Shown: piece after piece, positions 3,809-52,009 of the stretch
Position numbering within the stretch: position 1 is the stretch's first letter
How the letters are laid out: every line of letters begins with the position of its first letter
Source: Phycisphaerae bacterium RAS1
GTDB taxonomy: Bacteria > Planctomycetota > Phycisphaerae > UBA1845 > Fen-1342
Assembly (NCBI GenBank): GCA_007859745.1
Contig: SMLU01000001.1
Location: 1,488,001-1,552,000, forward strand
Length of the DNA: 64,000 bases
Direction of reading: 5' to 3'
Program-made: the position numbers and the translations under genes
The notes under the pieces: generated by a model
The model's input: the letters and a program-made list of their open reading frames with translations, nothing else
Database searches by the model: none
Told to the model about the DNA's origin: nothing

Positions 3809-5857
3809 ATGAACCGCCACGCCGCCCCCGCCCGGCTTTGCTGCCTGGGCTGCTGGATCGCTCTTACCCTCGCCATGGGAGTCGCCTCGATGAGCCTTGC
3901 CGATGTCCCCGCCGATTCGCCCGCCGCCGACGCGCTCAAGAAGGCCGAAGCCGCGGTGGCGGCGATCGTCGCCGTGCCCGATGGGAAGCGCAACTTCGAC
4001 AACACCGTCGGGGCCTATGACGACATGGTCGTCCGCCTTCAGACCGACACCGGCTTCCTGACGTTCATGCAGCACGTCAGCGGCGACGCCGACGAGCGTC
4101 TCCGCAGCCAGACCGCCGAAGAGCACATCACCAACTGGCTGATCGAACTCGGCAAGCGAGAAGACTTGTACAAGGCGATCAAGGCCTACGCCGCGACCAA
4201 TCCCAAGCTCGAAGGCGAGCAGAAGCGGCTGCTCGAGTTCACGCTGCGCGACTACCGCCGGGCAGGCATGGACCTGCCGCCTGAAAAGCGCGAGGCGTTG
4301 AAGAAGATCGAGATGGAGATCAACCGGCTGGGGATCGATTTCCAGAAGAACATTCGCGACGACGAGACGCGCGTGCCGCTGTCTCTGGCCGAACTCAAGG
4401 GTACGCCGCAGGACGTAATCGACGGCCTGCCGCGCTCCGGCGACATGTACCTGGCCGGGCTGGACTATCCCACGCTGCTGCCGATCATGGACTTCTGCGA
4501 GGTCGAAACGACGCGGCACAAGATGTGGCTGGCGAACCACCGCAAGGGCGGCAAGAAAAACGTCGGCGTGCTGGAGCAGATCCTGAAGTTGCGGGCGCAG
4601 GCGGCGGCGCTATTGGGCTACAAGACGGTGGTGGACTACGAAACCGAAACGCGGATGACGAAGAACGCCGAGACTGTGAAGAAGTTCTATGAGCAGGTTC
4701 GGCCGCTGGTGCGCAAGAAGTCGCAGCAGGATTACGATGAGTTCGTCGCGGTGAAGCGCCGCGTGACCGGCAACCCCGAGGCGAAGCTCAATCCGTGGGA
4801 CCAGGCGTATTACGAAAACGTGCTCAAGAAGGAGAAGTACGCCGTCGATGCGCAGAAGATCCAGGAGTTCTTCCCACTGGATCGCGTCGTCGATGGTCTC
4901 TTCGGCATCACGCAATCGCTCTACGGCATTGAGTACGTCGACGTGACCAAGGACGCCGGCTCGAAGGGGCTGCCGCTGTGGCATCCGGACGTGCGCGTCT
5001 TCGAAGTGCTCGACAAGGCCAGCAAGAAACAGATCGGTACGTTCTGGATCGACCTGTTCCCGCGCGACAATAAGTTCAGCCACGCCGCCCAGTGGAGCCT
5101 GGCCGCGCGCAAGCGCTGGGCGGACGGCAGCGTGCAGAAGCCGCTGGCGGCGCTGGTGTGCAATTTCACCAAGCCGACCAAGGAGAAGCCTTCGCTGCTG
5201 ACGCACGAGGAGGTCGAGACGTTTTTCCATGAGTTCGGCCACTGCCTGCACTCGATCCTGACCGAAGCAGACTACGGGACGTTCGCCGGCACGGCCTGTG
5301 CCCGCGACTTCGTCGAGGCCCCGTCGCAGATGTTCGAGAACTGGGTCTGGGATGCCGACGTGCTGGCGACGTTCGCGCGGCATTACAAGAGCGGCGAGCC
5401 GTTCCCGAAGGATCTGCTGGCGGCGATGGTCAAAACGCGCACATTGGGCAAGGGCCTCTGGGCCGAGCGGCAACTCTACTATGGCCTGCTCGACCTCACG
5501 TATCACCTTTCCGACGGAACAATCAACACGACAGAGACGGCGCAGAAACTCTACGGAGACGTGCTGCTCTACGAGGGCCAGCCGGAAACATATCTGCAGG
5601 CCGGTTTCGGGCATCTGATCGGCTACCAGTCGGCGTATTACGGCTACATGTGGTCGCTGGTCTATGCGCAGGATATGTTTCAGCGGTTTGCGGAATTGGG
5701 AATGCTCAGCCCGGAAGCGGGGCAGTATTACCGCAAGAAAATTCTCGCCCGCGGCGGGACGATGGATGACATGGAGATGGTGAAGGACTATCTGGGCCGC
5801 GAGCCGAAGATGGAGGCGTTCATTTCGTATCTGGGCTTGCCGGCGGGGAAGAACTAA
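3809..5857 (+). CDS. M3-family zinc metallopeptidase (oligopeptidase), exported
   Basis: The 682-residue product is a thimet-oligopeptidase-like peptidase that cuts short peptides. The zinc site is intact: H474-E475-F-G-H478 in the EVETFFHEFGHCLHS segment, with the third ligand E503 in DFVEAPSQMFENW exactly 25 residues on, the family spacing. A hydrophobic N-terminal segment (about residues 9-30, ending near SLADVPA) looks like a signal peptide, so it probably acts outside the cytoplasm; most bacterial M3 enzymes are cytoplasmic or lipid-anchored. The length matches oligopeptidase A/Dcp-type proteins. ATG at 3809 is preceded by the GGGAG of CCGGGAGTATTCC, a plausible ribosome binding site. 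Confidence 0.92.
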   Translation: MNRHAAPARLCCLGCWIALTLAMGVASMSLADVPADSPAADALKKAEAAVAAIVAVPDGKRNFDNTVGAYDDMVVRLQTDTGFLTFMQHVSGDADERLRSQTAEEHITNWLIELGKREDLYKAIKAYAATNPKLEGEQKRLLEFTLRDYRRAGMDLPPEKREALKKIEMEINRLGIDFQKNIRDDETRVPLSLAELKGTPQDVIDGLPRSGDMYLAGLDYPTLLPIMDFCEVETTRHKMWLANHRKGGKKNVGVLEQILKLRAQAAALLGYKTVVDYETETRMTKNAETVKKFYEQVRPLVRKKSQQDYDEFVAVKRRVTGNPEAKLNPWDQAYYENVLKKEKYAVDAQKIQEFFPLDRVVDGLFGITQSLYGIEYVDVTKDAGSKGLPLWHPDVRVFEVLDKASKKQIGTFWIDLFPRDNKFSHAAQWSLAARKRWADGSVQKPLAALVCNFTKPTKEKPSLLTHEEVETFFHEFGHCLHSILTEADYGTFAGTACARDFVEAPSQMFENWVWDADVLATFARHYKSGEPFPKDLLAAMVKTRTLGKGLWAERQLYYGLLDLTYHLSDGTINTTETAQKLYGDVLLYEGQPETYLQAGFGHLIGYQSAYYGYMWSLVYAQDMFQRFAELGMLSPEAGQYYRKKILARGGTMDDMEMVKDYLGREPKMEAFISYLGLPAGKN

Positions 5858-8208: not shown

Positions 8209-9747
8209 ATGGCTGCACCTCTGAACACCAACAGCCCGACGTCCGGCACTTCAACCGCCACGGGGCCGTCCGGCCTGTCTTCGTTTGACGCGCGCTTCTG
8301 GATCTGCAACACGATCGAGATGTGGGAGCGGCTGGCGTACTACACGCTGCGGCCGGTGGCGCCCATCTACATCATGCAGGCCACGGAGCCGGGCGGGCTG
8401 CATCTCACGGCGGCGCACAAGGGCTCTATCTATCTCTGGTGGGCCGTTTTCCAGTCGATTTTCCCGATCGTCACCGGCGGATTCGCGGATCGCTATGGCT
8501 ACAAGAACATGCTGGCCCTCTCGATTGTGCTGAACATCATCGGCTACGTCCTGATGGGGCTCTACCCGACGTACGAGGGGTTCTTCGCAGGTGTGCTGGT
8601 GATGGCGTTCGGGACGGCTTTCTTCAAGCCGTCGATCCAGGCGACGCTGTCAGCCAATCTCACAAAATCGAATTCATCGCTGGGATGGGGCGTGTTCTAC
8701 TGGGTGGTCAACGTCGGTTCGACCATCGGTCATTACATCTCGCCCGTGCTGCTGGGCAACCCGCACACCGCCCAGGGCTGGCAGACGCTGTTCTTCGCGT
8801 GCGCGGGCTTCACCGCGATGAACTTCATTCTGCTCTTTTTCGTGGTCGAGCCGCCTTCGGGGGCGTCGAAGACGGAAAGCCCGTTCGCATTGCTCGGCCG
8901 GACGCTCACCAATATCGTCGAACCCCGGCTGCTGGCGTGGATTCTGATCATGTCCTGCTTCTGGATGATGATGTACCAGTTGTGGGACACGCAGCCGAAC
9001 TTCATTGAAGACTGGGTGGACAGCTCGGCCATCGCGGCCTACCTGCCGCAGGACAGCCACTACGTCGAAGTCGGCGACCGCGGGCTGAAGCGCGTGCCGC
9101 AGCAGATTCTCATTTCGCTTAACGCGCTGATGATCGTGTTTCTGGTCGTTCCGGTCTCCGCCCTGGCGGGGCGCATGCGCACCCTCAGCGCGATGTTCTG
9201 GGGCATGCTGGGTGCGACGGCCGGCGTGCTGGTGGCGGGACTGACCGGCAACGGCTGGATTCTGCTGGCCGGCGTCATGCTCTTTTCTCTGGGCGAGATG
9301 CTCACCGGGCCCAAGAAGAGCGAGTACCTGTCGCTGATCGCCCCGGCCGGCAAGCGCGGCCTGTACCTGGGCTACGTCAACATCCCGACCGGCCTGGGCC
9401 AGGGAATCGGCAACAAGATCTCCGCCTACGTCTACGACAACTTCGGCGAGAAGGCGCGCCTGGCCCAAAAATACCTGCTCGAGCACACGCCTCTGGGCGA
9501 AGGGAAGAACTGGGACGGCGATGTCGGCAAACTGGACGCCACACTAGGTGTTTCGCGGACCGAGGCCTTCGCCAAGCTCCAGGAAGTGCTCGGCAAGAAC
9601 GGCGTCGAAGTCACCCAGCTTCTCTGGGACACCTACGACCCGCATCTGCACGTCTGGCTGCCCTTCGCCGCGATCGGCGTCGTCGCGGCGGTCGCCTTGT
9701 ACATCTACGGGAAAATGGCGCAGCGCTGGGCGGATATGAACGCCTGA
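8209..9747 (+). CDS. Proton-dependent oligopeptide (POT/PTR2) type MFS transporter
   Basis: The 512-residue product is a polytopic membrane protein with many hydrophobic segments spread over its length. The N-terminal EMWERLAYY (residues 37-45) fits the ExxER-F/L-x-YY signature of the proton-coupled peptide transporter family on helix 1, and GGFADRYGYKNM fits the MFS loop 2-3 motif. Such proteins import di- and tripeptides with protons, though planctomycete members are diverse and the substrate is not proven. A long extramembrane stretch around residues 440-480 carries the only strongly polar region. Its start lies 60 bases after a family J hairpin; a stem-loop 94 bases past the stop could terminate transcripts from both sides. 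Confidence 0.85.
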   Translation: MAAPLNTNSPTSGTSTATGPSGLSSFDARFWICNTIEMWERLAYYTLRPVAPIYIMQATEPGGLHLTAAHKGSIYLWWAVFQSIFPIVTGGFADRYGYKNMLALSIVLNIIGYVLMGLYPTYEGFFAGVLVMAFGTAFFKPSIQATLSANLTKSNSSLGWGVFYWVVNVGSTIGHYISPVLLGNPHTAQGWQTLFFACAGFTAMNFILLFFVVEPPSGASKTESPFALLGRTLTNIVEPRLLAWILIMSCFWMMMYQLWDTQPNFIEDWVDSSAIAAYLPQDSHYVEVGDRGLKRVPQQILISLNALMIVFLVVPVSALAGRMRTLSAMFWGMLGATAGVLVAGLTGNGWILLAGVMLFSLGEMLTGPKKSEYLSLIAPAGKRGLYLGYVNIPTGLGQGIGNKISAYVYDNFGEKARLAQKYLLEHTPLGEGKNWDGDVGKLDATLGVSRTEAFAKLQEVLGKNGVEVTQLLWDTYDPHLHVWLPFAAIGVVAAVALYIYGKMAQRWADMNA

Positions 9748-9770
9748 ATAACCCAGAGCCACTTCTTCAT

Positions 9771-9832
9771 CCGAGCCGCGCGCGTCAGCAAGCGGTTCTT
9801 AAGCTCCCGCTTCCTCACGGTCGCGGCTCGGA
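9771..9832. repeat. Family B paired repeat, copy 1
   Basis: CCGAGCCGCG...GTCAGCAAGCGGTTCTT faces CTCCCGCTTCCTCACGG...CGCGGCTCGG. The same sequences recur near 36.9 and 58.0 kb (complete) and near 51.1 and 53.6 kb (halves). Confidence 0.8.
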
Positions 9833-9836
9833 ACGC

Positions 9837-9879
9837 AAAAGACACACCGTCGGGAGCCGGTGGCTTCCGACGGCGTGTC
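9837..9879 (-). terminator. Intrinsic terminator of the TadG/VWA gene
   Basis: An 18-base stem (9841-9858 with 9862-9879, 16 of 18 positions perfect and one more a G-T pair) with a 3-base loop is followed on the minus strand by TTTT (9840-9837). It lies 32 bases past the stop of the minus-strand gene; the stem could also act on the convergent transporter transcript, which lacks a T-run. Confidence 0.75.
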
Positions 9880-9911
9880 TGATTGCCGCGCGATGCGGTC
9901 TTGTCTTCGCG

Positions 9912-11708
9912 TTATTCGATCAACGCGACCGGCCGGCGGCCGCCCAGCGTGCGGAAAATAAGCTGCAACTGATCGGCATATTCCTCGGGCGTGCCCTCGG
10001 CGTGGAAGTGCTGCCCGCCGGTCGTGGTGGCGATGGTCGCCATCAGGTCCACGTCCGCGTCGCCGCCGACGCTGACGGTATAGATCGTGATGTGGTTGTC
10101 GGCGCAGACTTGCGCCTCTTCGATGCACCAGTTGTTGATGGTGTCGCTGCCGCCGCTGACGAATCCGCCATTCTCGTCGATATTGGGTTTTCCGTCCGAC
10201 ATCAGCACCATGATTTTCCTGGCGGCGCTGCGGCCGCGCGACGAGAGCAGCTCGGCCCGGCCGGCGACAATGCCGCCGCCGATGTTGGTGGTGCTGTCGT
10301 AATGCCCGGCCTGTCGTCCATAGAGGCGGTCGGGAACATTCTGCAGCACGTCGGTCAGGTCGACTTCATGACGGGCAGTCGTGGCAAAGATCTCCAGGCC
10401 GATATGATCCATGCTCTCCAACCCGGCGATGACGTCCTTCATCGCCTGGACGGCGTCTTTAACCGCCTGCAGCGGCTGCTCGGGCGTCTGCCAGAGCACG
10501 TCGGTGCGGCTGTAAGCCGCCTGTTGCTCGAGCAGGAAGTTGGTGAACGTCTTCAGGCCGACGCGGTAGCGGACGCTGTTGTTCGTGTAGTACGCGGCGC
10601 TGGAGGTGCTGGCGGTGTAGTCGATGAAATTGGCCCAGGTCCAGGTGTGCCGCCAGGAGGGGTAGCTGGTCCAGACCATCTCGCTGTCTTCAACGTAGTT
10701 GTCGCCGTCGCCGCCGGAGGTGCCGCCGGGGCGGCCGCTGCGCCAGGACGCGAGCCCGACGATGACGGCGGCCCGGTTGCGCCAGTTGTTGGAATAGCCG
10801 TTGTCATACGAGGCCGCGTTCATCAGGCGGCTGATCTCGTCCGCCGTACATCCGCGACTTTGGAGCGAGGTTGTCGCCGCGGCGACGGTGCAGTTCGCCT
10901 TCTTGGGGATGTACCAGAGGCCCGCATCGGTGCTGGGCGTGTAGGATTCGGGGACGATCGGGCTGCCCCAAGTCGACATCACGCCGATGGTGGGGCCGCT
11001 GTCGCCGGCGTACTCGGTGTCGGCCTCGGCGCCGGGAACGTAGGGACGCGCGGGGGCCGGGCCGTTGAGGGCCGCCCAGCAATCGCGCAGGTTGATCTGC
11101 ATTCCGGGCCGCACTTCGCCGGTGTCGCCGGTGTACTGTTTGTAGTGCTGCAGCTCGCTGTCGTCGTTCATGGAGCCGGACAGATCGATCACCACGGAGA
11201 TGTCGCGCGGAATCAGGACGGCGGTCGCGCGGGCCCACATGTCCTTCTGTGACACGCCGAAGATGTTGCCGAACATCATGGGCAGCGGGCCGCCCTCCGA
11301 GCCTTCCGTCCGGCGCATGCGGATGCGGACGGCGTTGAAGTTCTCCGACGAAGGACTGAAGCCGAAGCGGTTGGTCCCGGCGTCATAGGTGGCCTGGCCA
11401 AACTCGACGTCGCTGTTCATGTCGAGGCCGGTGTAGTGGCCGGCCACGCGGTTCATGCGGGCGAACTCGTCCGCCACCGTGCGGGCCAGCTCAGTCGGCG
11501 AATTGACGCCGTCGCCGGCCAGGCGCGCCGCGGCGGCGAGCGCGGCGGAGTCGACCGCCGCCTGCATCTCGGCCTTGGCCGTGTAGAGGGTGCCGACGTC
11601 GACCGCCAGCGCGCCCATGCCGAAGATCACGGTCGACATGACCGCCACTTGAACCACGACTCCGCCGCGCCGCGTCCGGCGTCGGGCGGCCATGCGATAG
11701 CGCTTCAT
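9912..11708 (-). CDS. TadG-like pilus-assembly protein with von Willebrand A domain
   Basis: The 598-residue product begins with a basic stretch and one membrane segment (about residues 15-38), then the TadE/G-like region LYTAKAEMQAAVDSAALAAA (41-60) typical of Flp-pilus-associated proteins. A VWA domain follows, starting at VIDLSGSM (173-180) with an intact DxSxS metal site and a later VLMSDGKPNID segment. TadG-type proteins are membrane-anchored and face outward; they are thought to help anchor the Tad pilus. The gene lies downstream of cpaB-cpaC on the same strand but is separated by a terminator, so it is likely transcribed on its own. ATG at 11708 is chosen because it opens onto the positive-inside membrane anchor. 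Confidence 0.85.
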   Translation of the reverse strand: MKRYRMAARRRTRRGGVVVQVAVMSTVIFGMGALAVDVGTLYTAKAEMQAAVDSAALAAAARLAGDGVNSPTELARTVADEFARMNRVAGHYTGLDMNSDVEFGQATYDAGTNRFGFSPSSENFNAVRIRMRRTEGSEGGPLPMMFGNIFGVSQKDMWARATAVLIPRDISVVIDLSGSMNDDSELQHYKQYTGDTGEVRPGMQINLRDCWAALNGPAPARPYVPGAEADTEYAGDSGPTIGVMSTWGSPIVPESYTPSTDAGLWYIPKKANCTVAAATTSLQSRGCTADEISRLMNAASYDNGYSNNWRNRAAVIVGLASWRSGRPGGTSGGDGDNYVEDSEMVWTSYPSWRHTWTWANFIDYTASTSSAAYYTNNSVRYRVGLKTFTNFLLEQQAAYSRTDVLWQTPEQPLQAVKDAVQAMKDVIAGLESMDHIGLEIFATTARHEVDLTDVLQNVPDRLYGRQAGHYDSTTNIGGGIVAGRAELLSSRGRSAARKIMVLMSDGKPNIDENGGFVSGGSDTINNWCIEEAQVCADNHITIYTVSVGGDADVDLMATIATTTGGQHFHAEGTPEEYADQLQLIFRTLGGRRPVALIE

Positions 11709-17136: not shown

Positions 17137-19141
17137 GGCCGCGCTCGCGGCCCGACGCTGGTGGCGGCTCGGCCGCGTCAAACAACTCGGCCGACCCGGC
17201 GACCGCCTCGTTCTCCTTGACAATCACCGTGCTTTCGTCCGCGACAAGCTCATCGTCCGCATCCGCCGCTTTCTCGATCGGCTTGCCGTCTTCGTCCAGC
17301 TCGACATCCGCCTCCGCCGTCCGCTCGCGGGCGATTGCCTGAAGCTCCTTCATCAGCCGCTCTTTCGCCGCCCCGCTGATCGCAAAGAGCGCCTCGGACA
17401 CGTCTTCGATGTAGCGCTCAAAAATGCTCCGCCGCTCGCCCTCGAGCCGCTGGCGGCGGCGCTTGCGGACGTAGGCGGCCAGCTTGCGGCCGCACTCCTG
17501 GATCGAGAGCTTCATTTCCTTGCGGATTTCGTCGTAGTCGGCGATGGCTTCCTTGCTCTCACTGGTAAACGGCACCCAGACGCTGGCCATGTGCACCATC
17601 ACCACCAGCGGCGCGACCGGCAGCGAACCGCCCGGCTGCGAAACGCCGTAGTTGCGCCAGTCCACGTCCAGCACGCTCTTGAACGCGGCGCAGCCGGACT
17701 GCTGGTAGAGCAGCGGGACGCGGTTCGCAAAGCGGATCACGCGCGCCGGCTCGTCGGCCGGGAGCTGTCCGCCGAAGGCCAGGCCCACTTCGATCTGGAA
17801 GGGGTTGCCGCGGTAGACGGCCGGGTCGCGCGTCGTCGCGGTGTAGAACTCGGCCTTCAGTTCCTTGGTCAGGCCGTTGAGCAGGGCGCGGACGCCGATG
17901 GGCGCCAGGCAATCCGTCGGCGGGGCCATGATCCTGACCGACTGCATGCTCTGGTAGAGCCGCTCCGCCTCCTGCGGCTCGAGCGCGGCGGGCTTGGCGC
18001 TGTGCGACAGCTTGGCCGTATCGCAGATCTCATGCGCCACCTTGGTCGAGACGCGGCAGAACGCGTACTGCAGAAAGCTGCTGAGCGTTCGGATGTTGGC
18101 GGAGGCGCCCTTGTTTCCTTGATCTCTCGATCCCTTGATCCCTGCTTCTTTCAGCATCTTCATCAGCACGCCCAGCTCGATCCCGTGCGGGTGCGGCTGG
18201 ATTTCGCACGTCTCGGCGGGCAGGTCGCCGCTGGCGCGGGGGAAGTCGCGAACCACCGGGGCAGGCGGGGCGTCGGCGTTGCCGGCCAGCAGCAGGCGAT
18301 AGACAAAACGCGCGTGCGGGTTGGCGATGGCGGTCTGCTCGATGTACTCATCCACCGACTGGCGGCCCTTGGCGTAGCTGGCGACCAGCTCGATGCGGAC
18401 CTCGGTGCCGCGCTCCCACTCGACGTCCTGCTCTTCGTCGACGACCACGTCCGGTCGGTTCTTGGTGGTGTCGATCGCGATCTGGAAGTGATGGGCCGGT
18501 TTCCTGTCGCTGATACGCGAGGTGATGTGGATCGGCTTGCCAGTGGTCAACAGGCCGTACATGCCGGCGGCGGAGATGCCGATGCCCTGTTGGCCGCGAG
18601 ACATCTTCAACCGATGAAATTTCGAGCCGTACAACAGCTTGCCGAAGATGTTGGGAATCTGGGCCTTGACGATGCCGGGGCCGTTGTCGCGGACGGTGAC
18701 TCGAAAGCGCTCTTCCGCGAGTTGCTCGATGCCGATGTGAATCTCGGGCAGGATGCCGGCCTCTTCGCAGGCGTCGAGGCTGTTATCCACGGCCTCCTTC
18801 ACCGTCGTCAGCAGGCTCTTGCGCTTGTTGTCGAACCCCAGCAGGTGCCGATTCTTGGCGAAAAACTCAGAGACGGAGATATCACGCTGCTTGGCCGCCA
18901 TCGACTCGGCCGTCGCGTTGGTGCGCTTCCGCGGCTGGCCGTTGGACTTGGGGGCGCGCTCCGCGGCGTCCGGCTCCGCCGGCGCTGGCGCCGGCGGCGA
19001 GGTGACAGCCGCGGTAGCAGGCGGCGAGTCCGGTCGCGCCGGCTTCGGCTGCGGCTCGGCGTCCGGCGCGTCGAAGAGCCCCGGCGCATCATCGCGTTTC
19101 TTCTTCTTCCCGCCGGTCTGCTTCAGCCCTGACGATGCCAT
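17102..19141 (-). CDS. top6B: DNA topoisomerase VI subunit B
   Basis: The 679-residue product is the ATPase subunit of a type IIB topoisomerase. After an 80-residue Pro/Ala/Lys-rich extension comes the GHKL fold: KEAVDNSLDAC (N box, about 115-125), RDNGPGI (151-157) and SRGQQGIGISAAGMYG (181-196), then a transducer region. Subunit A, which carries the DNA-cutting tyrosine, is not in the window. Two oddities are visible. Residues about 330-345 (GIKGSRDQGNKGA) are encoded by an array of 8-base units, and the last residues (QNAKRKRAR) and stop are encoded by a family G dispersed repeat. ATG at 19141 is chosen since the longer frame runs over the divergent YhbY-like gene. Confidence 0.9.
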   Translation of the reverse strand: MASSGLKQTGGKKKKRDDAPGLFDAPDAEPQPKPARPDSPPATAAVTSPPAPAPAEPDAAERAPKSNGQPRKRTNATAESMAAKQRDISVSEFFAKNRHLLGFDNKRKSLLTTVKEAVDNSLDACEEAGILPEIHIGIEQLAEERFRVTVRDNGPGIVKAQIPNIFGKLLYGSKFHRLKMSRGQQGIGISAAGMYGLLTTGKPIHITSRISDRKPAHHFQIAIDTTKNRPDVVVDEEQDVEWERGTEVRIELVASYAKGRQSVDEYIEQTAIANPHARFVYRLLLAGNADAPPAPVVRDFPRASGDLPAETCEIQPHPHGIELGVLMKMLKEAGIKGSRDQGNKGASANIRTLSSFLQYAFCRVSTKVAHEICDTAKLSHSAKPAALEPQEAERLYQSMQSVRIMAPPTDCLAPIGVRALLNGLTKELKAEFYTATTRDPAVYRGNPFQIEVGLAFGGQLPADEPARVIRFANRVPLLYQQSGCAAFKSVLDVDWRNYGVSQPGGSLPVAPLVVMVHMASVWVPFTSESKEAIADYDEIRKEMKLSIQECGRKLAAYVRKRRRQRLEGERRSIFERYIEDVSEALFAISGAAKERLMKELQAIARERTAEADVELDEDGKPIEKAADADDELVADESTVIVKENEAVAGSAELFDAAEPPPASGRERGPGQNAKRKRAR
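18109..18150. repeat. 8-base-unit array inside top6B
   Basis: On the coding strand the units read GGGATCAA, GGGATCGA, GAGATCAA, GGAAACAA. The array is read in frame as GIKGSRDQGNKG. The same units occur in the urocanase gene at 59123-59160. Confidence 0.8.
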
Positions 19142-19192
19142 CCGTGGCTCCCACGTGCGAACACGCCGATTCTCCGGCAATGGTAGCGGGCG

Positions 19193-24611: not shown

Positions 24612-24680
24612 TCCGCGGCCGGGCGCGAGTGCGGGGCGACATTCCTGGGCAGGCGCCGGCCGGCGTCGTCGACAGGGCCG

Positions 24681-24785
24681 TCTTTCCGAACCCGCCGCGC
24701 CAAGCGGCGGGTTGACGATCTCAATTGGGCGGCGCCATACCCGCCGGGGACGTCACCCCGCCGCTTGGCGCGGCGGGTTCGGACG
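24681..24785. repeat. Family A paired-hairpin repeat, copy 2
   Basis: TCTTTCCGAACCCGCCGC starts the left hairpin; the right, inverted hairpin runs CGTCACCCCGCCGCTTGG to GGCGGGTTCGG. The spacer is about 30 bases. It fills the 283-base gap between sdpI and the VWA gene. Confidence 0.88.
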
Positions 24786-24894
24786 GAGGGACGCGCCGGC
24801 GCGCCGCGGAGAGCCGTGACGTACGCGCCCCGCGCTGCCGAGCTACAATGCTCCGGTGGCAGCCCGCGCGATCGGGCTGCCCGGGGCTGGCTGC

Positions 24895-32520: not shown

Positions 32521-32645
32521 TCTTTCCGAACCCGCCGCGTCAAGCGGCGGGTTGAGGTGCGCGCGGCGCTCGGCGTCAATCTACGACGAGCCGCCGCGAA
32601 AGCGCCCGGACGTCACCCTCGCCGCTTGGCGCGGCGGGTTCAGAC
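32521..32645. repeat. Family A paired-hairpin repeat, copy 3
   Basis: TCTTTCCGAACCCGCCGC begins the left hairpin and CGTCACCCTCGCCGCTTGG the right; the right arm ends GGCGGGTTCAGACG. Spacer about 57 bases. It lies in the divergent gap between the XRE regulator and the BFN-domain gene. Confidence 0.87.
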
Positions 32646-32764
32646 GCGCCGGAGCGGGCTTGCCCGGATTTCTGGGCACACCCCAAGAGCGAGGCGAGCG
32701 GCGTTTGCTTGACACTCCCCAGATGGATGGATACCGTCGCGCAGTCAAGCGGAGTATCGCGCGG

Positions 32765-39443: not shown

Positions 39444-39494
39444 GGCTTAGCTACCTCCGGTCGCGTCAGATTTCAGTTTGCCGGCGGACAGTCC

Positions 39495-39597
39495 GTCCGA
39501 CCCCGCCGCGCCAAGCGGCGGGTCGACGTCCCCCGCCCTTGCGCCCCTGCACGCCGCCGAACATCGACCCGCCGCTTGGCGCGGCGGGTTCTGAAAA
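39495..39597. repeat. Family A paired-hairpin repeat, copy 4
   Basis: CCGACCCCGCCGCGCCAAGC starts the left hairpin, and CATCGACCCGCCGCTTGGC with GGCGGGTTCTGAAAAG forms the right one. It lies between the GldG-like and DUF4340 genes, inside one apparent operon. Confidence 0.87.
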
Positions 39598-43573: not shown

Positions 43574-43924
43574 GCCTGTTCCTCCGCGTGTAGAAGCACG
43601 ATGACGATTCGGGCGTCGCGTACCCGTCAAGAACCGGTTCGCGTCCCTCACCGCCGAGTGGGTAGATGGCCTGCATCTTCTTGTATGCGCTGCTGGACAT
43701 CGCGCCGCAGTTCGCTCAGTCTTGGCCGCCGGCTGCTGGCCGCCGGGAGTTCCAGCGGCCTTCGCCGGGGCGCGAAGCAGCCGTGCGACCGCCGGCCGAT
43801 CGCCGTAAATTCTTCCAGCGCCCGGTGTTAACGCCCGCGGATGGCGCGCTTTCGCTCCGCCCCGCAGGGGCGACGATGTTAGTTGGACCGTCCCGCATGT
43901 CAAGGGTATGAGGAGGACGCCTGC
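43574..43924. other. Divergent intergenic region (GldA-like / HD-domain genes)
   Basis: This 351-base gap separates two divergent genes. It has GC-rich stretches and a slightly AT-richer patch near 43870-43890 (ACGATGTTAGTTGGACC) that could hold a promoter, but I cannot name a clear -35/-10 pair. No known repeat family member is present. Confidence 0.45.
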
Positions 43925-44485
43925 ATGACGCGCAATGAGGCCTTTGTGCTGCTGCACGAATACGTGAAAAGCGATTCGCTTCGCAAGCACATGCTCGCCG
44001 TCGAAGCCGCCATGCGGCACTACGCCGGCCTCCTGGGCGGCGACGTCGAACAGTGGGGACTGGCCGGACTGCTGCACGACTTCGATTACGAGCGCTGGCC
44101 GACGCCGCCGGACCACACGCGGCAGGGGGCCCCGATCCTGCGGGCGGCGGGCGTGGATGAGGAGGTGGTCGGCGCGATCCTGTCCCATGCGGACTGGAAT
44201 CTGGACGAGTTCCCGCGCGACCGGCCGATTCGCAAGGCGCTCTTTGCGGTCGATGAACTGTGCGGCTTCGTCACGGCCTGCGCGCTCGTCCGCCCCGGCC
44301 GGCTGGAGGGGCTTGAGCCGGCGAGCGTGAAGAAGAAGATGAAGACGGCCGCCTTCGCGGCGGCGGTGAAGCGCGAGGACATCCACAGCGGCGCGGAGCT
44401 GCTCGGGTTGCCGCTGGATGATCACATCCGGAATTGCGTGACGGCGATGCAAACGGTGGCGGACGAACTGGGCCTGAAGACGTAG
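43925..44485 (+). CDS. HD-domain phosphohydrolase
   Basis: The 186-residue product carries the HD metal-binding domain: the first histidine in SLRKHMLAVEAAMRHYA (about 20-36), LLHDFDYERWP with the H-D pair (about 56-57) and a later ILSHADWNL histidine (about 93). These fit the HDIG-like family of small phosphohydrolases acting on nucleotides or signalling molecules. The true substrate is unknown. ATG at 43925 (MTRNEAFVLL) begins the domain. A family C repeat starts 38 bases after the stop. Confidence 0.82.
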   Translation: MTRNEAFVLLHEYVKSDSLRKHMLAVEAAMRHYAGLLGGDVEQWGLAGLLHDFDYERWPTPPDHTRQGAPILRAAGVDEEVVGAILSHADWNLDEFPRDRPIRKALFAVDELCGFVTACALVRPGRLEGLEPASVKKKMKTAAFAAAVKREDIHSGAELLGLPLDDHIRNCVTAMQTVADELGLKT

Positions 44486-44522
44486 CGGCTCGCGTGGCCC
44501 CCCTGAGCCTTTGAACTTTTTC

Positions 44523-44588
44523 GGGTGGAACGGGCATCTTGCCCGTTCCTGAGATCGCAGGGACGGGCGAGACGCCCGTCCCACCCAG
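44523..44588. repeat. Family C paired-hairpin repeat, copy 2
   Basis: GGGTGGAACGGGCATCTTGC with CCCGTTCC, then GGGACGGGCGAGACGCCCGT and CCCACCC. It lies between the HD-domain gene and the truncated acetyltransferase copy. Confidence 0.87.
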
Positions 44589-44605
44589 ATGTCCACATTC
44601 TCCGC

Positions 44606-44956
44606 TTAACCCAGCACCAGCCGGGCCTCCTCGCACGCAGGGAATCGATCCGTCGCCTTCACCCACTCGTACCCGGCAATCCTGAAGCCGCACTTTTCCA
44701 GTACGCGGATCGACACGGCGTTGCTGCGGGCAGCTCGCGCGTGCAGCGGCCGCAGCGCAACCGCATCGAGCAGCAGCCTGAGAGCGCGCGTCGCAATGCC
44801 CTTGCCCCAGTGCTCCTTCGCGATCCAATAGCCGACGGAATCCAGCCCCTCCAGCTTGAAGCACGAGATGTTGCCCACGAGCTGATCATCCAGCAGGATG
44901 ACCCGCGCGACGACGCTCGCGTCCCTGAGAATCTCCTCCCAATGCAATCGAAACGG
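44606..44956 (-). pseudogene. 5'-truncated copy of the GNAT acetyltransferase gene
   Basis: Bases 44611-44956 match 48205-48550 at 345 of 346 positions by direct reading (only 44715 A versus 48309 G). The copy keeps the acetyl-CoA site (KEHWGKGIATRAL) and C-terminus but loses the first 50 or so residues of the gene. The frame runs further into unrelated DNA to 45076, so a chimeric protein could be read, but its N-terminus has no GNAT features. A small stem-loop (CACGGAC ... GTCCGTG, 44975-45004) with a preceding GGTGGCACG direct repeat lies just past the break. Confidence 0.85.
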
Positions 44957-44974
44957 ACAGGTGGCACGAGGTGG

Positions 44975-45004
44975 CACGGACAAGCGGTACACCGCTAGTC
45001 CGTG
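44975..45004. repeat. REP-like hairpin at the truncation point
   Basis: CACGGAC (44975-44981) pairs with GTCCGTG (44998-45004), with an inner AGCGG/CCGCT stem. It is preceded by GGTGGCACGAGGTGGCACGG. The GGTGGCA lead resembles the lead of the REP hairpins near the RAYT gene at 62.3 kb. Confidence 0.6.
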
Positions 45005-45091
45005 TCCCCGTTGCGCCCCTGGCGAGCGCGAGACTGCGCCGACTTCCGACGGTTCAGCGGATGGCAGGTCTGCCAAGCCCGATCTACAGCC

Positions 45092-45991
45092 CTAATTCAA
45101 ATCACCAAAGACGGCGGTCGCGTTCCCCCCGAGGCGAATCTGTCCGCCGCTGAAGTCGATCCCGTTCCAAGCACCAACGCCTGCCTGGTCGCCAAACTTC
45201 AACTCGCCGTCGGAAACCTCGAATCCGATGTAGCTGCTCACGTGAAAGCCATAGCGTGTGAATTCCATCAAACCCCCCTGCACGTAGAATTTCCCTTCGA
45301 TCGTCGTGTAGGCATAGTGAGTGATCGCGGTGCCAAAACGGATCGTGCCATCAGACACGGTTGCTGCTGGCTCGCCGCTCAGCAGAATGTAGGAAAACTC
45401 GGTAGGAGTGGACAGTGTTCCGAACAGCATCGTGTCGTCGGCGCAATCGACGACGAAGAACCCGTCGCGCAGGTTGAGATACTCTGTGAACTGGATGCTG
45501 CCCCGGACCGTAACCGTGCCGAAGTCTACCACGCGCGTCGAGACGTCCGTCCCAGTGACTTCGGCCGGGCCGAGGTTGTCCGCGACGCTGGCTTGAATGC
45601 TGCCGTCGCCGCTGAACGTCAGCGTTCCGCTGACGAGCAGGCGCGGCATGACGCTGGATGGTTTTTCCATTTCGATTTTGCCGGAGAGCGAGATCGCTGG
45701 CTGGGTGGAGCCGTAGCTCACCAGCGTCAGGTCGCGCCCGCTGACGCGGACGACGGCGCCACTGGCGATTGTGAGCGTCGTGATGGCCTCATTCTGCGAA
45801 CTCACAATACAGGTCTTGCCGGTGGGGATCGTGGCGGTATCGCCGGTACCGGGGCGGCCATTGGGCGTCCAGTTGCCGTTCACGCTCCAAGTTCCGGAGT
45901 TCCCACTTTGGGGTTGAAACGTGTAGTCCGTCGCCGTGGCCAGATCGACCGCGGCCAACAGAATGAGAGCGATTGACAGTTTCGATTTCAT
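45092..45991 (-). CDS. Exported beta-rich repeat protein
   Basis: The 299-residue product has a signal peptide (SKLSIALILLAAVDLATATD, cut near residue 21) and then a beta-strand-rich sequence with recurring short Gly/Thr/Ser turns, e.g. GNSGTWSVNGNWTPNGRPGTGDTATI. The latter is typical of secreted planctomycete repeat proteins with a beta-helix or autotransporter-like passenger fold. No enzyme motif is visible. It is the first of three exported-protein genes on the minus strand that share lower GC than the surroundings and lie between the two acetyltransferase copies. No membrane anchor or dockerin is seen. Confidence 0.7.
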   Translation of the reverse strand: MKSKLSIALILLAAVDLATATDYTFQPQSGNSGTWSVNGNWTPNGRPGTGDTATIPTGKTCIVSSQNEAITTLTIASGAVVRVSGRDLTLVSYGSTQPAISLSGKIEMEKPSSVMPRLLVSGTLTFSGDGSIQASVADNLGPAEVTGTDVSTRVVDFGTVTVRGSIQFTEYLNLRDGFFVVDCADDTMLFGTLSTPTEFSYILLSGEPAATVSDGTIRFGTAITHYAYTTIEGKFYVQGGLMEFTRYGFHVSSYIGFEVSDGELKFGDQAGVGAWNGIDFSGGQIRLGGNATAVFGDLN

Positions 45992-46102
45992 GGCAATATC
46001 TCCTCTGGGCGCGCACGATGGCGCGCAGATGGTGTCTTGTATTTCCGCACGCTTGTCCTGCTCGTACAGGGACCTGCGCGGAACGCACAGGGACCGTGCG
46101 CC

Positions 46103-47296
46103 TCACATCGGCGGCACGCCCGCGAGCAGGGCCACGAACGGATTGATGTCCAATACGTCAACGGCACCGTCGGCATTGATGTCCGCCAGCGCGGGATCGC
46201 ATTCGGGTAACGCTGTCTTGTACGCCGCCTCGTTGCTCACCGCGAGTACGAAGGCGTTGATGTCCAGTATGTTCACCGCGTGGTCACAATTGAGATCGCC
46301 CGTCGGGAAACTCGCCAGAAGTCCGATGCCGACCTCGAACGGCGTTCCCGAGTGCCACACGACTTCGCCGCGGTCGTTCGCGCGTCCGTCGAAATTCCAA
46401 TGAGCGTCCGAGGTCAGCTCCCAGATCTCGCCATTGGTGTAGCGGCACACCTGCCAGGTGTGCGAGCCTTCATGCCATCGATTGAACACAATGTGGCCGC
46501 CATTGCGGCTCATGTAGAGGCCGCTGCCCCACGACGTGATCAGGGACAATGACCCACCGCGCCAAAGAACAATCTGATCGTCCAGCCCCTCATACCAGGC
46601 GATGTCGCCGCCGTTGTTGATGTCCGGGCGCTGCGGCTCAAAGCGGTTCTGGGTGACCTGCGACAGCACGCCGGCGTTGTAACGCATTACATCGGATGTC
46701 CAGGGCGACACGCAGTCGTTGTAGCGCACCCAGACGATCTCGTCGAGATCGTTGATCCGGGCGCCCTGATTCGAATACCCTGGCTGACTGATCTTGCTGG
46801 CAACTGTGCCGTCGTAAAAGTACACGTCAGCCGTGCTGCCGGCGCAGCCGGCGCCCAGCCAGCGCGACCACACGATGTGATCATCTGCGTTGACCCTTGC
46901 CTCGAAGTTCCAGAACGTATCATCCGTCAGGTACGTCAACTGCCCGTTCTTCAACATCGCGATCTGGAGCGGGCCGTCTGGCCCCGTGCCGCGAGACCAT
47001 ACAATCGTGCCGGCATCGTTGATGTCAGCGAACTCGTCTCGCACGTTGTCGTTTGTGAGGCGAGTGAGTTGCCCCCGCTCGTAGTCGTAGAGGTACAGCT
47101 CGGCCGTGTCACCATTGTACGGGTCACTGCGGACCGTGAAAACAATCTGACCATTGTTGTTGATCGCGGGATATCGCGACTGACCGGACGGCGCCGGGAC
47201 GTCGCTTCGGAAAAACCCCGGCGGCATATCGCCTGCACGCATCGCGGTTGGCGCCAGCAGGAACAAGAACGGAAGCGCAAGCAATGGTGCTTTCAT
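46103..47296 (-). CDS. Exported TolB-like beta-propeller with dockerin repeats
   Basis: The 397-residue product has a signal peptide (LLALPFLFLLAPTAMRA, cut near residue 21), about six short beta-propeller-like repeats reading AxIND-x-G-x-IVW-like (AINNNGQIVF, DINDAGTIVWSR, RVNADDHIVWSRW, RINDLDEIVWVRY, DINNGGDIAWYEG, RANDRGEVVWHSG), and a C-terminal pair of dockerin-like segments (GDLNCDHAVNILDINAF and ADINADGAVDVLDINPF). The repeated [D/A]-I-N-x-x-G-x-I-x-W blades suggest a TolB-like propeller. Role is unknown; the dockerin could attach it to a cell-surface partner. The gene lies between two other exported-protein genes. Confidence 0.75.
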   Translation of the reverse strand: MKAPLLALPFLFLLAPTAMRAGDMPPGFFRSDVPAPSGQSRYPAINNNGQIVFTVRSDPYNGDTAELYLYDYERGQLTRLTNDNVRDEFADINDAGTIVWSRGTGPDGPLQIAMLKNGQLTYLTDDTFWNFEARVNADDHIVWSRWLGAGCAGSTADVYFYDGTVASKISQPGYSNQGARINDLDEIVWVRYNDCVSPWTSDVMRYNAGVLSQVTQNRFEPQRPDINNGGDIAWYEGLDDQIVLWRGGSLSLITSWGSGLYMSRNGGHIVFNRWHEGSHTWQVCRYTNGEIWELTSDAHWNFDGRANDRGEVVWHSGTPFEVGIGLLASFPTGDLNCDHAVNILDINAFVLAVSNEAAYKTALPECDPALADINADGAVDVLDINPFVALLAGVPPM

Positions 47297-47315
47297 CGAT
47301 GCACCTCGCCGGCCG

Positions 47316-47684
47316 CTAGTTGGTCTGAATTCGCCCGTCGGCCATCGTAATCAAGATTTCGTTGCTCGTGGGCGTATAAAGGTAGAACGTCTGCACCGTC
47401 ACGGTTTCCGGCCCGCTACCCGTCCCGGTAAAGTTGGTGCTGGTCTGAACTTCGATCCTCTGGATCGTGTGCGTCGCGAGCGTGCAGGTGAATGTCGTGT
47501 CCGTGTCGCCGAAGCGCGCCACGTCCGTCGCCTGTGACGGATAGCACTCCGGCGGCGAGCCGACGTACTTCCAGTTGCAACCATCCCAGTTGTTGTTCTC
47601 CCCCGGGCTGAACGAGAATGACGTGCCCCAGCACGTCGCCGCCGTCATGGCGACCAGGACGGCCATAAGCCCTCTGCGTTTCAT
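47316..47684 (-). CDS. Small exported protein of unknown function
   Basis: The 122-residue product has a signal peptide (RRGLMAVLVAMTAATCWG, cut near residue 20), and then a short beta-rich domain with four cysteines (NWDGCNWKYVGSPPECYPS, TFTCTLATH), likely forming disulfides outside the cell. The SFSPGENNNWDGCNW start resembles the TWSVNGNWTPNG opening of the exported repeat protein at 45092-45991, so the two may share a fold. It is 19 bases upstream of the propeller gene on the same strand, probably cotranscribed. Confidence 0.65.
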   Translation of the reverse strand: MKRRGLMAVLVAMTAATCWGTSFSFSPGENNNWDGCNWKYVGSPPECYPSQATDVARFGDTDTTFTCTLATHTIQRIEVQTSTNFTGTGSGPETVTVQTFYLYTPTSNEILITMADGRIQTN

Positions 47685-48199
47685 GGCTTACACTCCCCGG
47701 AAATGTCCGCCCGCACCCGGCGGCTACGTTGCCGCCCTCCCCGGTACAGCCCCTAACAGCGCTGTGCCTTCCACATTGTAGTCTACCTGCGCTTCCCCCC
47801 CTGGCAAACAAGGAACCAGATTTTTTCGGAATTCGCCAAGACGCGCCGTGCGGATGCGCTCATCGCACGGCCCTCATCCCACGCCCGCACTCGGCTCTCA
47901 CGAGCGCGGCGGCAAACAGGCCGCGGGGCATTCCGGCGGCCGCGCTCGCTTGCGCCCCTTGTGCGCGTTCCAAGCGCGAAACGCGAAGTTGGGTACTGGT
48001 CAAGTTTGCTGGTGGGTGCCATGCCGACGGCCTTCGCGTCGGCATGCCCACGCAAAAGCCGTGGGCATGGCACCCGAACTTGACCAGTACCCGAAGTTGG
48101 CAAGCCGAACACGAACAAGCCGTCGCGACCAGCGTTTTCCAGCGCCGAGGCGCCGTCGGCGCGGCGGCTTGACCGCGCCGCCCAACCGGGCAGCGCCTG
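47685..48199. other. Gap holding the nested cruciform (family F copy 2)
   Basis: This 515-base region has no convincing gene. It holds a degenerate family G-like stretch (CGCTCGCTTGCGCCCC, 47943-47958) and the palindrome described separately. Several open frames here are short and lack domain features. Confidence 0.6.
47991..48092. repeat. Family F nested palindrome, copy 2
   Basis: Three nested stems: outer GGGTACTGGTCAAGTT (47991-48006) with its exact complement at 48077-48092; middle GGGTGCCATGCC (48014-48025) with GGCATGGCACCC (48064-48075); inner GCCGACG-GCCTTCG-CGTCGGC. A copy of the middle and inner parts is at 23474-23534. Confidence 0.88.
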
Positions 48200-48700
48200 C
48201 TAATCCAGCACCAGCCGGGCCTCCTCGCACGCAGGGAATCGATCCGTCGCCTTCACCCACTCGTACCCGGCAATCCTGAAGCCGCACTTTTCCAGTACGC
48301 GGATCGACGCGGCGTTGCTGCGGGCAGCTCGCGCGTGCAGCGGCCGCAGCGCAACCGCATCGAGCAGCAGCCTGAGAGCGCGCGTCGCAATGCCCTTGCC
48401 CCAGTGCTCCTTCGCGATCCAATAGCCGACGGAATCCAGCCCCTCCAGCTTGAAGCACGAGATGTTGCCCACGAGCTGATCATCCAGCAGGATGACCCGC
48501 GCGACGACGCTCGCGTCCCTGAGAATCTCCTCCCAATGCAATCGAAACGGCTCGGCCTCGCGCGGGTTCGCGATCGCCATGCGGTTGGAGTCGGGGTCGA
48601 GCTGGAATTGGAACAGCGCCGGGATATCGCGCGACTCGACGGCGCGCAGGACAACTCTCTCGGCGCCGGACCCTGAGTCACTCACAACCGGCTCGCTCAC
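48200..48700 (-). CDS. GNAT-family N-acetyltransferase (RimJ/RimL-like), intact copy
   Basis: The 166-residue product is a complete GNAT protein: a VVLRAVESRDIPALFQFQLD start, a VGYWIAKEHWGKGIATRAL segment with the acetyl-CoA-binding loop (about residues 92-110), and the SIRVLEKCGFRIAGYEW C-terminal motif typical of RimJ/RimL-type enzymes that acetylate amino groups of small molecules or proteins. Its 3' 346 bases are duplicated at 44611-44956. The two loci bracket a 3.2-kb block with three exported-protein genes. It ends the strand 12 bases after the TPR protein gene's stop region on the same strand. Confidence 0.85.
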   Translation of the reverse strand: MSEPVVSDSGSGAERVVLRAVESRDIPALFQFQLDPDSNRMAIANPREAEPFRLHWEEILRDASVVARVILLDDQLVGNISCFKLEGLDSVGYWIAKEHWGKGIATRALRLLLDAVALRPLHARAARSNAASIRVLEKCGFRIAGYEWVKATDRFPACEEARLVLD

Positions 48701-48712
48701 GCGCCATCGGGG

Positions 48713-51034
48713 TCATTCCCGCGGCGCGGGTTGAGAGGCCGCGGCGCGCTGCGCCTCAATATAGCTGCCGGCCAGTTCGCGGACGAGCTCGTCCTCGTCG
48801 CCGGCCGCCATCTCCGCCAGCACCTCGGCGAACGAGGCGCCCTGCCGCACCATGAGCCGCACGGCCATCATTCGCACCAGCCAGTGCGAGTGATCGAGGC
48901 AGCCGTTGACGGCGGCCAGCATGGCGGCGTCGAGGCCGACGTTCTGCATCGCATCCAGCGTGCGGACGCGGTTTTCCCACGAGTCGCTCGACAGGCCCGC
49001 GAGCAGCGCTTTGCGGATCGCGTCTGCGGCGACCGCGCGCGGCTTGTAGTTGAGCCGGCCGAGGGCCGCGTTCTGCGCTTCGCCGAGCATCTCGGCCAGG
49101 ATTTCGACCGCGCGAAATCGCTGCACGTCGGAGTCGCCGCCGAGCGCCGCGAAGAGCGCGTTGAGCGCCTGCGGGCTGGTTCCGACGGGCACGCGATTGA
49201 AGTAGAGCGCCGGCAGGGTCTGGCCGCCGGGCGCCGGCTTCCATTGCCCGTCCGGCCCGCGCATGGGATCCAGCGTGGCCGAGAGGACGACGCGCTGCGC
49301 ATGCTGCGGCGTCATGCGCATGATCTTGCGGATCGGGCCGACGTCGATCGTCTGCCGGGTGCGCACGCTCCCGCCGGGCGGCACCACGCGGGCGCGGTCG
49401 AGCGTGACCGTGAGGAGATTTGGAAAATCGCGCTTCTTGTCGCCTTCGACCTGAAAGGAGAGCAGGAAGACCGGGTTGACCATGCCGTCCGGGCCGAGCG
49501 TGATCGGGAAGCGGGCCCGGTTCGTCAGGATGAATTCCGCGCGCCACGGATCGCCCGGCTCGACGCTGCGGTCCTCCAGCCTGATGGAGGCTTCGAGGAA
49601 GCGCGCCGGTTCGCGATGAAACGCGAGCGCCTCGCGGTCGAAACCGCTCAACACGTCGCGCATCTCCGCGGTCAGCATGCCGGCCGGCTGCGTGGCGCTG
49701 GCGGGCAGCCCGGTCTCGCGGAACAGATCGCGCGCCGGCCCGACCAGCGGGAATCGTTCGCACGTCTCCACGACGCGAATCGCGCCCGGCTCGTCGCCTG
49801 CGTCTTTCAGCAGCCGGGCCACCTTGTAGGCCGCGTAGGGATCGAGCTCGGCGATGGGCGTGAGCGTGGCGCGGGCGGCGTCGAACTGGCCGTTCATCTC
49901 CTGCGCCCATCCGTGCACGCGCGTGGCGAAGATGTCGCCGGCGGCCCGGGCCGCCGCGGACTCGGCCAGGCTCAGGGCGCGCTGCGGCTGCGGGTCGACC
50001 ATGCAGTAGAACCAGGCGGCCTGGGCCACCTCATCGACCGCGAAGTCCATGGGCTCGCGGATGGATGCGAATCGCTTGCCCAACTGCTCCGCCACGACGC
50101 CGGCTTCGGTCGTTCGGCCGCGCTGGGTGAACAGCCAGTGCAGCAGCAGGCCCGCCTGGGCCGCGAGGTTTGGAAAGCGGTCAATGACCTGTTTGGCCAG
50201 GTCAATGGCGCGATCCGGCTGCTGCCGCGCGACGGCGTTGCGCGCCTGCTGCAGCAGGTATTCGCCCGGGAGCAGCGCGCTTGGATCCGACAGCCGAAAC
50301 ACCTCCGTGGCGTGCGTGTAGAACTTGTCGGCCTCATCGGGCAGACCGTAGTCGTCAAGCAGGATGCCGATTTCCCACGCCACGTCCACTGCCATCGGAT
50401 TCAGTTGCAGCAGCCGCAATCCCGCCCGCAGGCGCAGCGCCGGCGGCGTGGTGGCATCGAGCGCCTCGACCGCGACGGCGGCGGCGTCCGGATTGAAGGG
50501 GTCGAGTCCCAGCACACGATCCAGTTGCATCCGCGCCTGGGCGCGGTCCATCGCGTAAACCGCCAGCCGGGCGATGTGAAGCTGGATCAGCGCCTGCATC
50601 TGCGGCGGGCGCGCGGCTGCTTCGGACAGGCCGTCGAGCCAGTCCTTACGGTCCTCGAGCGTCTGGCGCGTGGCCAGTCCGGCATCGAGCCAGCGCCCGA
50701 ACGCGCCGACATTCGTGACGTCGAGTTTTACGAGTTTCTGAAGCGCGTCGGCGGCCTGGACGTTGTCCCGCTCGAGCATGGCGAGTTCGTAGAGCCAGAC
50801 GTAGGGATCGGGCAGACGGGAATCGACGCGCGTCGCCGCCCGCAGCAGCGCGCGGACTTGCATGACGTCCGCCGGTGTCTGCTGGCCGCCGCGCGTCAGG
50901 GCGTGGTCGCGCGCCAGGTGGACGAGAAGCTCGGCGGTGGTGAGCGGGGCAGGCCGGTCGGCCGCGATGGCGCCGGCGCCGAGGAGCAATCCGAAGACCC
51001 CCGCTGACAGCAGGCGCCGTTGCCAGGCTTTCAC
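48713..51034 (-). CDS. Exported TPR/HEAT-repeat protein
   Basis: The 773-residue product has a hydrophobic leader (LLSAGVFGLLLGAGAIA, about residues 7-23), a long run of TPR-like helices (for example PYVWLYELAMLERDNVQAAD and KFYTHATEVFRLSDPS), and a C-terminal part with HEAT-like helical pairs (IRKALLAGLSSDSWENRVRTLDAMQNVGLD). It should be a periplasmic or cell-surface scaffold protein; no catalytic site is visible. GTG at 51034 is chosen because AGGAGGATCCT directly precedes it, a textbook ribosome binding site. It is cotranscribed with, or reads toward, the acetyltransferase gene. Confidence 0.72.
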   Translation of the reverse strand: MKAWQRRLLSAGVFGLLLGAGAIAADRPAPLTTAELLVHLARDHALTRGGQQTPADVMQVRALLRAATRVDSRLPDPYVWLYELAMLERDNVQAADALQKLVKLDVTNVGAFGRWLDAGLATRQTLEDRKDWLDGLSEAAARPPQMQALIQLHIARLAVYAMDRAQARMQLDRVLGLDPFNPDAAAVAVEALDATTPPALRLRAGLRLLQLNPMAVDVAWEIGILLDDYGLPDEADKFYTHATEVFRLSDPSALLPGEYLLQQARNAVARQQPDRAIDLAKQVIDRFPNLAAQAGLLLHWLFTQRGRTTEAGVVAEQLGKRFASIREPMDFAVDEVAQAAWFYCMVDPQPQRALSLAESAAARAAGDIFATRVHGWAQEMNGQFDAARATLTPIAELDPYAAYKVARLLKDAGDEPGAIRVVETCERFPLVGPARDLFRETGLPASATQPAGMLTAEMRDVLSGFDREALAFHREPARFLEASIRLEDRSVEPGDPWRAEFILTNRARFPITLGPDGMVNPVFLLSFQVEGDKKRDFPNLLTVTLDRARVVPPGGSVRTRQTIDVGPIRKIMRMTPQHAQRVVLSATLDPMRGPDGQWKPAPGGQTLPALYFNRVPVGTSPQALNALFAALGGDSDVQRFRAVEILAEMLGEAQNAALGRLNYKPRAVAADAIRKALLAGLSSDSWENRVRTLDAMQNVGLDAAMLAAVNGCLDHSHWLVRMMAVRLMVRQGASFAEVLAEMAAGDEDELVRELAGSYIEAQRAAASQPAPRE

Positions 51035-51097
51035 AGGATCCTCCTGTCTGGTTGCCGCCGCTTCCGTGCGGCCGATGCACGCCCGATTCCGCGCCGC

Positions 51098-51155
51098 GAC
51101 CGCCAGGAAGCGGTCTGCAGACAACCGTTCCCTCACGGTCGCGGCTCGGTTCGAA
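51098..51155. repeat. Family B half copies
   Basis: GCGCCGCGACCGCCAGGAAG (51090-51109 region) and CCGTTCCCTCACGGTCGCGG (51127-51146) are degraded family B arms facing each other upstream of the TPR protein gene. Confidence 0.65.
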
Positions 51156-51764: not shown

Positions 51765-51912
51765 GCCGAACCCGCCGCGCCAAGCGGCGGGTTGACGATC
51801 GTGGGCGGGCGGCGACTCACAGGCTGGGGACGTCACCCCGCCGCTTGGCGCGGCGGGTTCGGAAAGATCGGCACGTCACCCCGCCGCTTGGCGCGGCGGG
51901 TTCGGAAAGATC
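51765..51912. repeat. Family A repeat with three hairpins, copy 5
   Basis: One left-type hairpin (CCGAACCCGCCGCGCCAAGC, from 51767) is followed by two right-type hairpins (CGTCACCCCGCCGCTTGG at 51830 and again at 51874), each ending GGCGGGTTCGGAAAGATCGG. The extra right hairpin looks like a tandem duplication. It lies in the divergent gap between clpS and ribBA; no FMN riboswitch is visible there. Confidence 0.9.
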
Positions 51913-52009
51913 GGCCCGCCGCAAGGCCGCCGCGCCTGCCCAAATCTGTGGTCACACGCTGCACCCACCGCCCGTCGCACGTTCGCGGAAACCGGCTAGA
52001 ATCAGGCCT

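Follow-up and report, generated by a model that had tools for sequence, protein, structure and literature searches.

Integration of DNA that relies on a single homologous anchor together with an illegitimate joint has been documented chiefly in laboratory crosses. In Escherichia coli, incoming DNA homologous at one end was described to yield mostly duplications via single crossing-over of the re-circularised molecule; duplication of the lacZ end was detected by PCR in 56 of 60 clones, and in the experiments reported there the 14 sequenced duplications measured 109-950 bp, to be compared with 137-346 bp for the segments bracketing the gene cassettes considered here, while three of the four clones ascribed to homology-facilitated illegitimate recombination (HFIR) were without homology at the joint (PMC3240628). 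HFIR has been discussed as a contributor to strain diversity (PMC2884548), and a process akin to it was suggested for the insertion of a Type VI effector-immunity module in Vibrio cholerae (PMC5361080). Transformation merodiploids of Streptococcus pneumoniae represent one more related case, in which imported DNA pairing at an alternative site gives rise to duplications (PMC3784515).

The locus described below would, on the reading preferred here, share with the single crossover of a re-circularised fragment and with HFIR the combination of one homologous anchor within a gene and one illegitimate joint, and the recombination as such is of a known kind. The footprint is that of single-crossover (Campbell-type) integration, with direct repeats of a homologous segment flanking the insert and one gene copy complete. 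Each of the described systems nevertheless differs from it in some respect. The E. coli duplications were obtained with laboratory constructs (PMC3240628). HFIR usually results in insertion-coupled deletion rather than in duplication, whereas a duplication is what is seen here, at a place having no reference locus against which a further deletion could be read. The V. cholerae module, as presented in that report, likewise has a homologous upstream anchor and an old 3′ end displaced downstream, but it displaces an effector or its domain, whereas here the host gene (hereafter gene X) has no relation to the inserted cassette and is preserved intact (PMC5361080). Pneumococcal duplications span about 100-900 kb and need chromosomal repeats, unlike the cassette brackets (PMC3784515).

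Within the 64-kb stretch of DNA that was analysed (the window), segments 44611-44956 and 48205-48550, offset by 3594, differ at one base of 346 (44715, A/G, nonsynonymous), just as the initial annotation had stated, and BLAST extends the repeat to 44607-44956 and 48201-48550 with 2 mismatches in 350. This pair is the sole long non-repetitive direct repeat of the window. Its right copy (48201-48550, minus strand) is the 3′ part of gene X, a complete open reading frame at 48200-48700 of the minus strand coding for a GNAT-family N-acetyltransferase of 166 aa (Pfam PF13302, Acetyltransf_3, E 3e-22), relatives of which occur in 22 of 60 other genomes at E<=0.001 with a best identity of 59%. The left copy (44607-44956, minus strand) is an orphan 3′ end deprived of the start and of the first about 50 codons and possessing the aligned stop codon (TAA versus TAG), so that the earlier description of a whole right copy and a left one lacking the gene start is borne out. 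The upstream neighbour of gene X encodes a TPR/HEAT protein (48713-51136, minus strand; Pfam), and downstream of the orphan lies a convergent HD-domain gene (43883-44485, plus strand; Pfam). An assembly artefact is unlikely, since the copies differ, their flanks are unique, the locus is situated in the interior of a 3.4-Mb contig and a like layout is found at other loci. Conserved synteny gave no empty site, because in relatives the TPR and HD neighbours are placed on separate contigs or far apart, and neither was met at the 19 loci, of 2.2-3.5 kb apiece, that carry relatives of the GNAT gene and come from other genera.

Three genes sharing the minus strand with gene X separate the two copies: P3 (47316-47684, 122 aa), P2 (46103-47296, 397 aa) and P1 (45092-45991, 299 aa), preceded by a leader (47692-47829, minus strand) which comparison of copies shows to be common to other representatives and to form the upstream end of the conserved unit. 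With GC contents of 0.604, 0.606 and 0.599, respectively, against 0.662 in the window, they agree with the initial annotation of three lower-GC genes for exported proteins (about 60% versus 66%); all three products appear signal-peptide-like and putatively exported, as judged by eye from their hydrophobic N-termini. P3, the first gene of the cassette, is an open reading frame for a short G8-like protein having no Pfam match; its paralogues adjoin other copies of P2, and its likeness to P1 was judged by eye. The AlphaFold model of P2 (mean pLDDT 90.2) displays a confident beta-propeller, to which CylK, TolB and designed propellers are the nearest solved folds, and a small helical dockerin-like C-terminal end; the latter scores 22.1 bits with Dockerin type I (PF00404), just under the Pfam gathering score of 22.9, and its profile matches solved dockerins at E 0.004-0.02. 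P1 contains a G8 domain at residues 41-91 (PF10162, 23.7 bits, above the gathering score of 22.9) in a beta-rich AlphaFold model (pLDDT 81.1), for which the fold search against solved structures returned no match better than E 0.004. The function of the cassette is probably cell-surface or extracellular binding. By its dockerin-like end and G8 domain it resembles known exported proteins with Dockerin type I or G8 domains, and differs from them in being a dispersed paralogous P3-P2-P1 unit, which we did not find in the open-access literature.

The block belongs to a family of three-gene, exported-protein cassettes, copies of which are dispersed. The search for the same three genes elsewhere, proposed in the initial annotation, revealed 13 full-length copies of P2 in the window's genome, mostly with P1- and P3-like neighbours, and further copies in relatives. 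At tblastn E<=1e-4, P1-like genes adjoin 12 of the 13 (the exception being locus L142) and P3-like genes 11, with no P3 match at L135 and L137, despite an open reading frame in the P3 position at L137. At a threshold of E<=1e-8, matches to P2, many of them confined to the dockerin, occur in 36 of the 61 genomes, and P1-like genes in 10 of 61 at E<=1e-4. A propeller-profile scan covering 84,980 species yielded 33 confirmed loci, 31 of which belong to records titled Phycisphaerae, Phycisphaerales, Planctomycetota or (one) just "bacterium", the other two, with weak scores, coming from one Deltaproteobacteria and one Nitrospirae MAG. The copy most like that of the window (P3 70%, P1 63%) is located at L131, where 114 bp separate the upstream side of the cassette from the end of contig C1 (L131:14405-14519), as if the assembly broke at the repeat; several copies in genome G011 are also found at contig ends. 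Tandem P2-P1 arrays in G011 and tandem P2-like genes in MAG OFTM258 (L151, L145, L148, L189) suggest that the cassette may also multiply in place.

Brackets of the kind seen in the window were sought at 44 cassette loci, of which 3 have no sequence on one side and several others short flanks only. A gene-derived bracket was found at four of the 41 cassettes with flanks and was absent from the remaining 37. The four share one layout, a complete gene X followed by the same-strand cassette and then by the orphan 3′ end of X, and are formed on unrelated genes in three genomes, X being intact in each of them: the acetyltransferase gene of the window, a DUF3419/BtaA-like gene (L137), recO (L157) and an open frame (L189). 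At L137 (G000:C1:80000-95000) the cassette is enclosed between 5552-5856 and 8867-9171 (305 bp, 2 mismatches), and the right copy sits in a complete gene (8855-10213) that we take, from its sequence, to be DUF3419/BtaA-like, NCBIfam providing no name for it; its relatives occur in 24 of 60 other genomes. L157, from another genus of the family (G014), contains complete recO (named by eye), the cassette and an orphan of 138 bp with 6 mismatches, fused behind the apparent start of a metallo-hydrolase gene (by eye). At L189 (OFTM258) an open frame, which domain search assigned to no family, is followed by two P2-like propellers and by a P1-like start that continues, in frame, into a copy of the terminal 35 codons of this open frame; the duplication spans 137 bp with 90.5% identity. 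The fused product (L189:11287-11751), differing from its source, the neighbouring gene, by synonymous changes only, is possibly a live fusion gene. No cassette standing behind the GNAT, BtaA, recO or OFTM258 frame without an orphan was met in 66 loci scanned, a number that counts L177, the public record of the L157 contig. A fifth cassette (L140) is bracketed in another manner, by a reciprocal-best pair of REP-like repeats that are 94% alike, the next best match genome-wide being 84%.

Several further pairs were considered and set aside. REP pairs at L133 and L138 have better matches elsewhere and were not accepted as insertion-made duplications; the 57-bp pair at L147 falls within G8-like coding sequence and is a paralogue match, and the L191 pair belongs to a repeat family (both by eye). 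The background of direct repeats was sampled in 34 stretches of the window's genome (662 kb) for low-copy pairs 0.3-9 kb apart, and just a few others were encountered: 63 bp at L207, 69 bp at L212, L214, and 81 bp at L208. The L214 pair lies within one repetitive protein, L208 in a repeat-rich region, and L210 is repetitive. At L207:8881-10298, the 63-bp repeat (97%) flanks a Fic/DUF4172 gene, with CRISPR-like repeats and a gene of helicase type next to it, and is another insertion-like footprint without the cassette. At L212:16549-19129, a 69-bp piece of gene 18438-19181 is repeated beyond an exported-protein gene rich in NT repeats; the layout is not the same, as the copy within the intact gene does not adjoin the insert. 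Random placement, based on 20 random stretches and the L207, L212 and L214 pairs, produced a bracket in 14 of 200,000 trials, whereas 2 of the 12 cassettes that could be tested in the window's genome (L131, at a contig end, being left out) have a gene-derived bracket, by criteria that were set after the cases had been seen.

We give about an even chance to the explanation that the cassette entered as DNA of a close relative by means of one RecA-type crossover and one illegitimate joint. The source would be a close relative in which the cassette closely follows the stop codon of its version of the acetyltransferase gene, and the incoming piece would consist of the last ~350 bp of this gene together with the cassette. 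A single crossover within the shared ~350-bp segment and one illegitimate joint, formed either by closing of the fragment into a circle or by direct joining at a few matching bases, would leave an intact gene X upstream and the cassette behind it, with the 3′ end that had belonged to the resident gene stranded downstream as an orphan. Short matches at the inner joints (GCGTGC in BtaA, CCGT in GNAT) were picked by eye, without a chance test.

Entry of this kind would account for the position of the outer ends of the duplications, which lie within 5 bp of the stop codon for GNAT, 12 bp short of the last base of the stop codon for BtaA, at the stop codon itself for recO and about 30 bp past it in OFTM258. 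With a source in which the cassette follows X, homology ends where the cassette begins, and source and resident would diverge at or near the stop codon; simple duplication of a target by insertion could place the outer end anywhere past the stop. The copies in OFTM258 and at recO moreover look like alleles. The five coding differences in OFTM258 are without exception synonymous (probability 0.005 for random transitions), and after the stop codon just 16 of 30 bases match; at recO it is the orphan that shows the residues usual among relatives (GN..A), the complete copy reading VK..E at this place. Owing to these stop-codon ends, synonymous-only differences and relative-like residues, two alleles from different strains fit better than one local copying event. 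The proposal of the initial annotation, an insertion that duplicated part of its target, is in this respect retained in part: the footprint is insertion-like, includes a duplicated piece and recurs at other loci, but simple target-site duplication poorly explains the stop-codon ends (four of four), the OFTM258 differences and the recO orphan. Some observations speak against alleles. Five of the six recO differences are nonsynonymous and clustered near the joint, and that at 44715 of the GNAT copies is nonsynonymous too; the OFTM258 orphan is in frame with the P1-like piece, and selection on the fusion could also give synonymous-only change. Nor did the other genomes searched, all from different genera, include a cassette-free sister or a donor having X and the cassette but no orphan.

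At L137 and in the window, repeats abut the orphan on both sides, which points instead to events driven by hairpins. A replication fork halted by REP-like hairpins next to the cassette might allow the new strand to slip back about 3.5 kb and to copy a few hundred bases of the 3′ end of gene X, a local error that needs no foreign DNA and that we regard as possible though unlikely. What keeps it alive is the set of palindromes adjoining the orphans. In the window, repeat search and folding identified a REP-like palindromic repeat beside the outer end of the acetyltransferase orphan (44503-44606, the conserved part ending at 44597), another abutting its inner end (44957-45010, with family copies elsewhere in the genome), and a dispersed one between gene X and the cassette (47986-48092). 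The BtaA orphan is confined between a REP-like repeat (5473-5551) and an inverted repeat of 10 bp, read by eye, which spans the joint; folded alone, the fragment L137:5857-5890, without one arm of this inverted repeat, adopted no structure. Such adjacency is weak evidence, since REP-like repeats are common in this genome. Other dispersed palindromic members were noted in the window at 51766-51942, 24646-24800, 32521-32646, 39480-39596 and 1891-2025, and for one palindromic family a first look gave 508 candidate sites genome-wide. Complete BtaA terminates with VNGKG, like VNGKA of the G011 relative, while the orphan terminates with VNP, and its outer end may therefore have arisen anew; these ends fit the allelic and the local-copy view alike. 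Slippage leaves unexplained why copying stopped at or near the stop codon of X in four cases, as well as the synonymous-only differences in OFTM258 and the relative-like residues of the recO orphan.

It is improbable that the cassette is cargo of an unrecognised mobile element which inserts near gene ends and generates target duplications of 120-350 bp. Recurrence at four gene ends in three genomes, together with the bracketing REP pair at L140 and the dispersed, lineage-limited distribution of copies, would suit such an element. Yet the insert yielded no transposase, integrase or conserved terminal sequence: Pfam domains of these enzymes were absent from the three genes of the block and from seven overlapping open reading frames, and neither terminal inverted repeats nor insert ends common to the copies, as expected of a DNA transposon or insertion sequence, were found. 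Nor does it resemble an integrative element at gene 3′ ends, lacking an integrase domain and having repeats of 137-350 bp that derive from different genes. Duplication lengths vary, 37 of 41 cassettes have no gene-derived bracket, and the downstream end of the recO insert resembles (by eye) the start of another gene, meaning that the insert end is not fixed. Tandem duplication of the 3′ part of X with the cassette and subsequent loss of the second cassette, for which the tandem P2-P1 arrays of G011 and P2 pairs of OFTM258 might speak, is highly improbable, as it needs four independent deletions starting at or near the stop codon of X and leaving no cassette remnant.

Our searches of the open-access literature met no published account of the cassette family or of its recurrent footprint. 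Entry from a relative may be extended to a recombinase-free way of spreading, which we consider doubtful, where a cassette lodged after the stop codon of a gene leaves together with the 3′ end of that gene and, through a single crossover, enters it again in related cells. If this were true, every entry would keep the host gene intact, and the cassette could loop out once more between its repeats; from the direct repeats one would expect the block to be lost and the gene to be restored exactly. The arrangement of a whole gene, a cassette and an orphan gene end provides a simple signature for other genomes, and its presence at four genes in three uncultured planctomycete genomes would show how large families of exported proteins can be shared without transposases.
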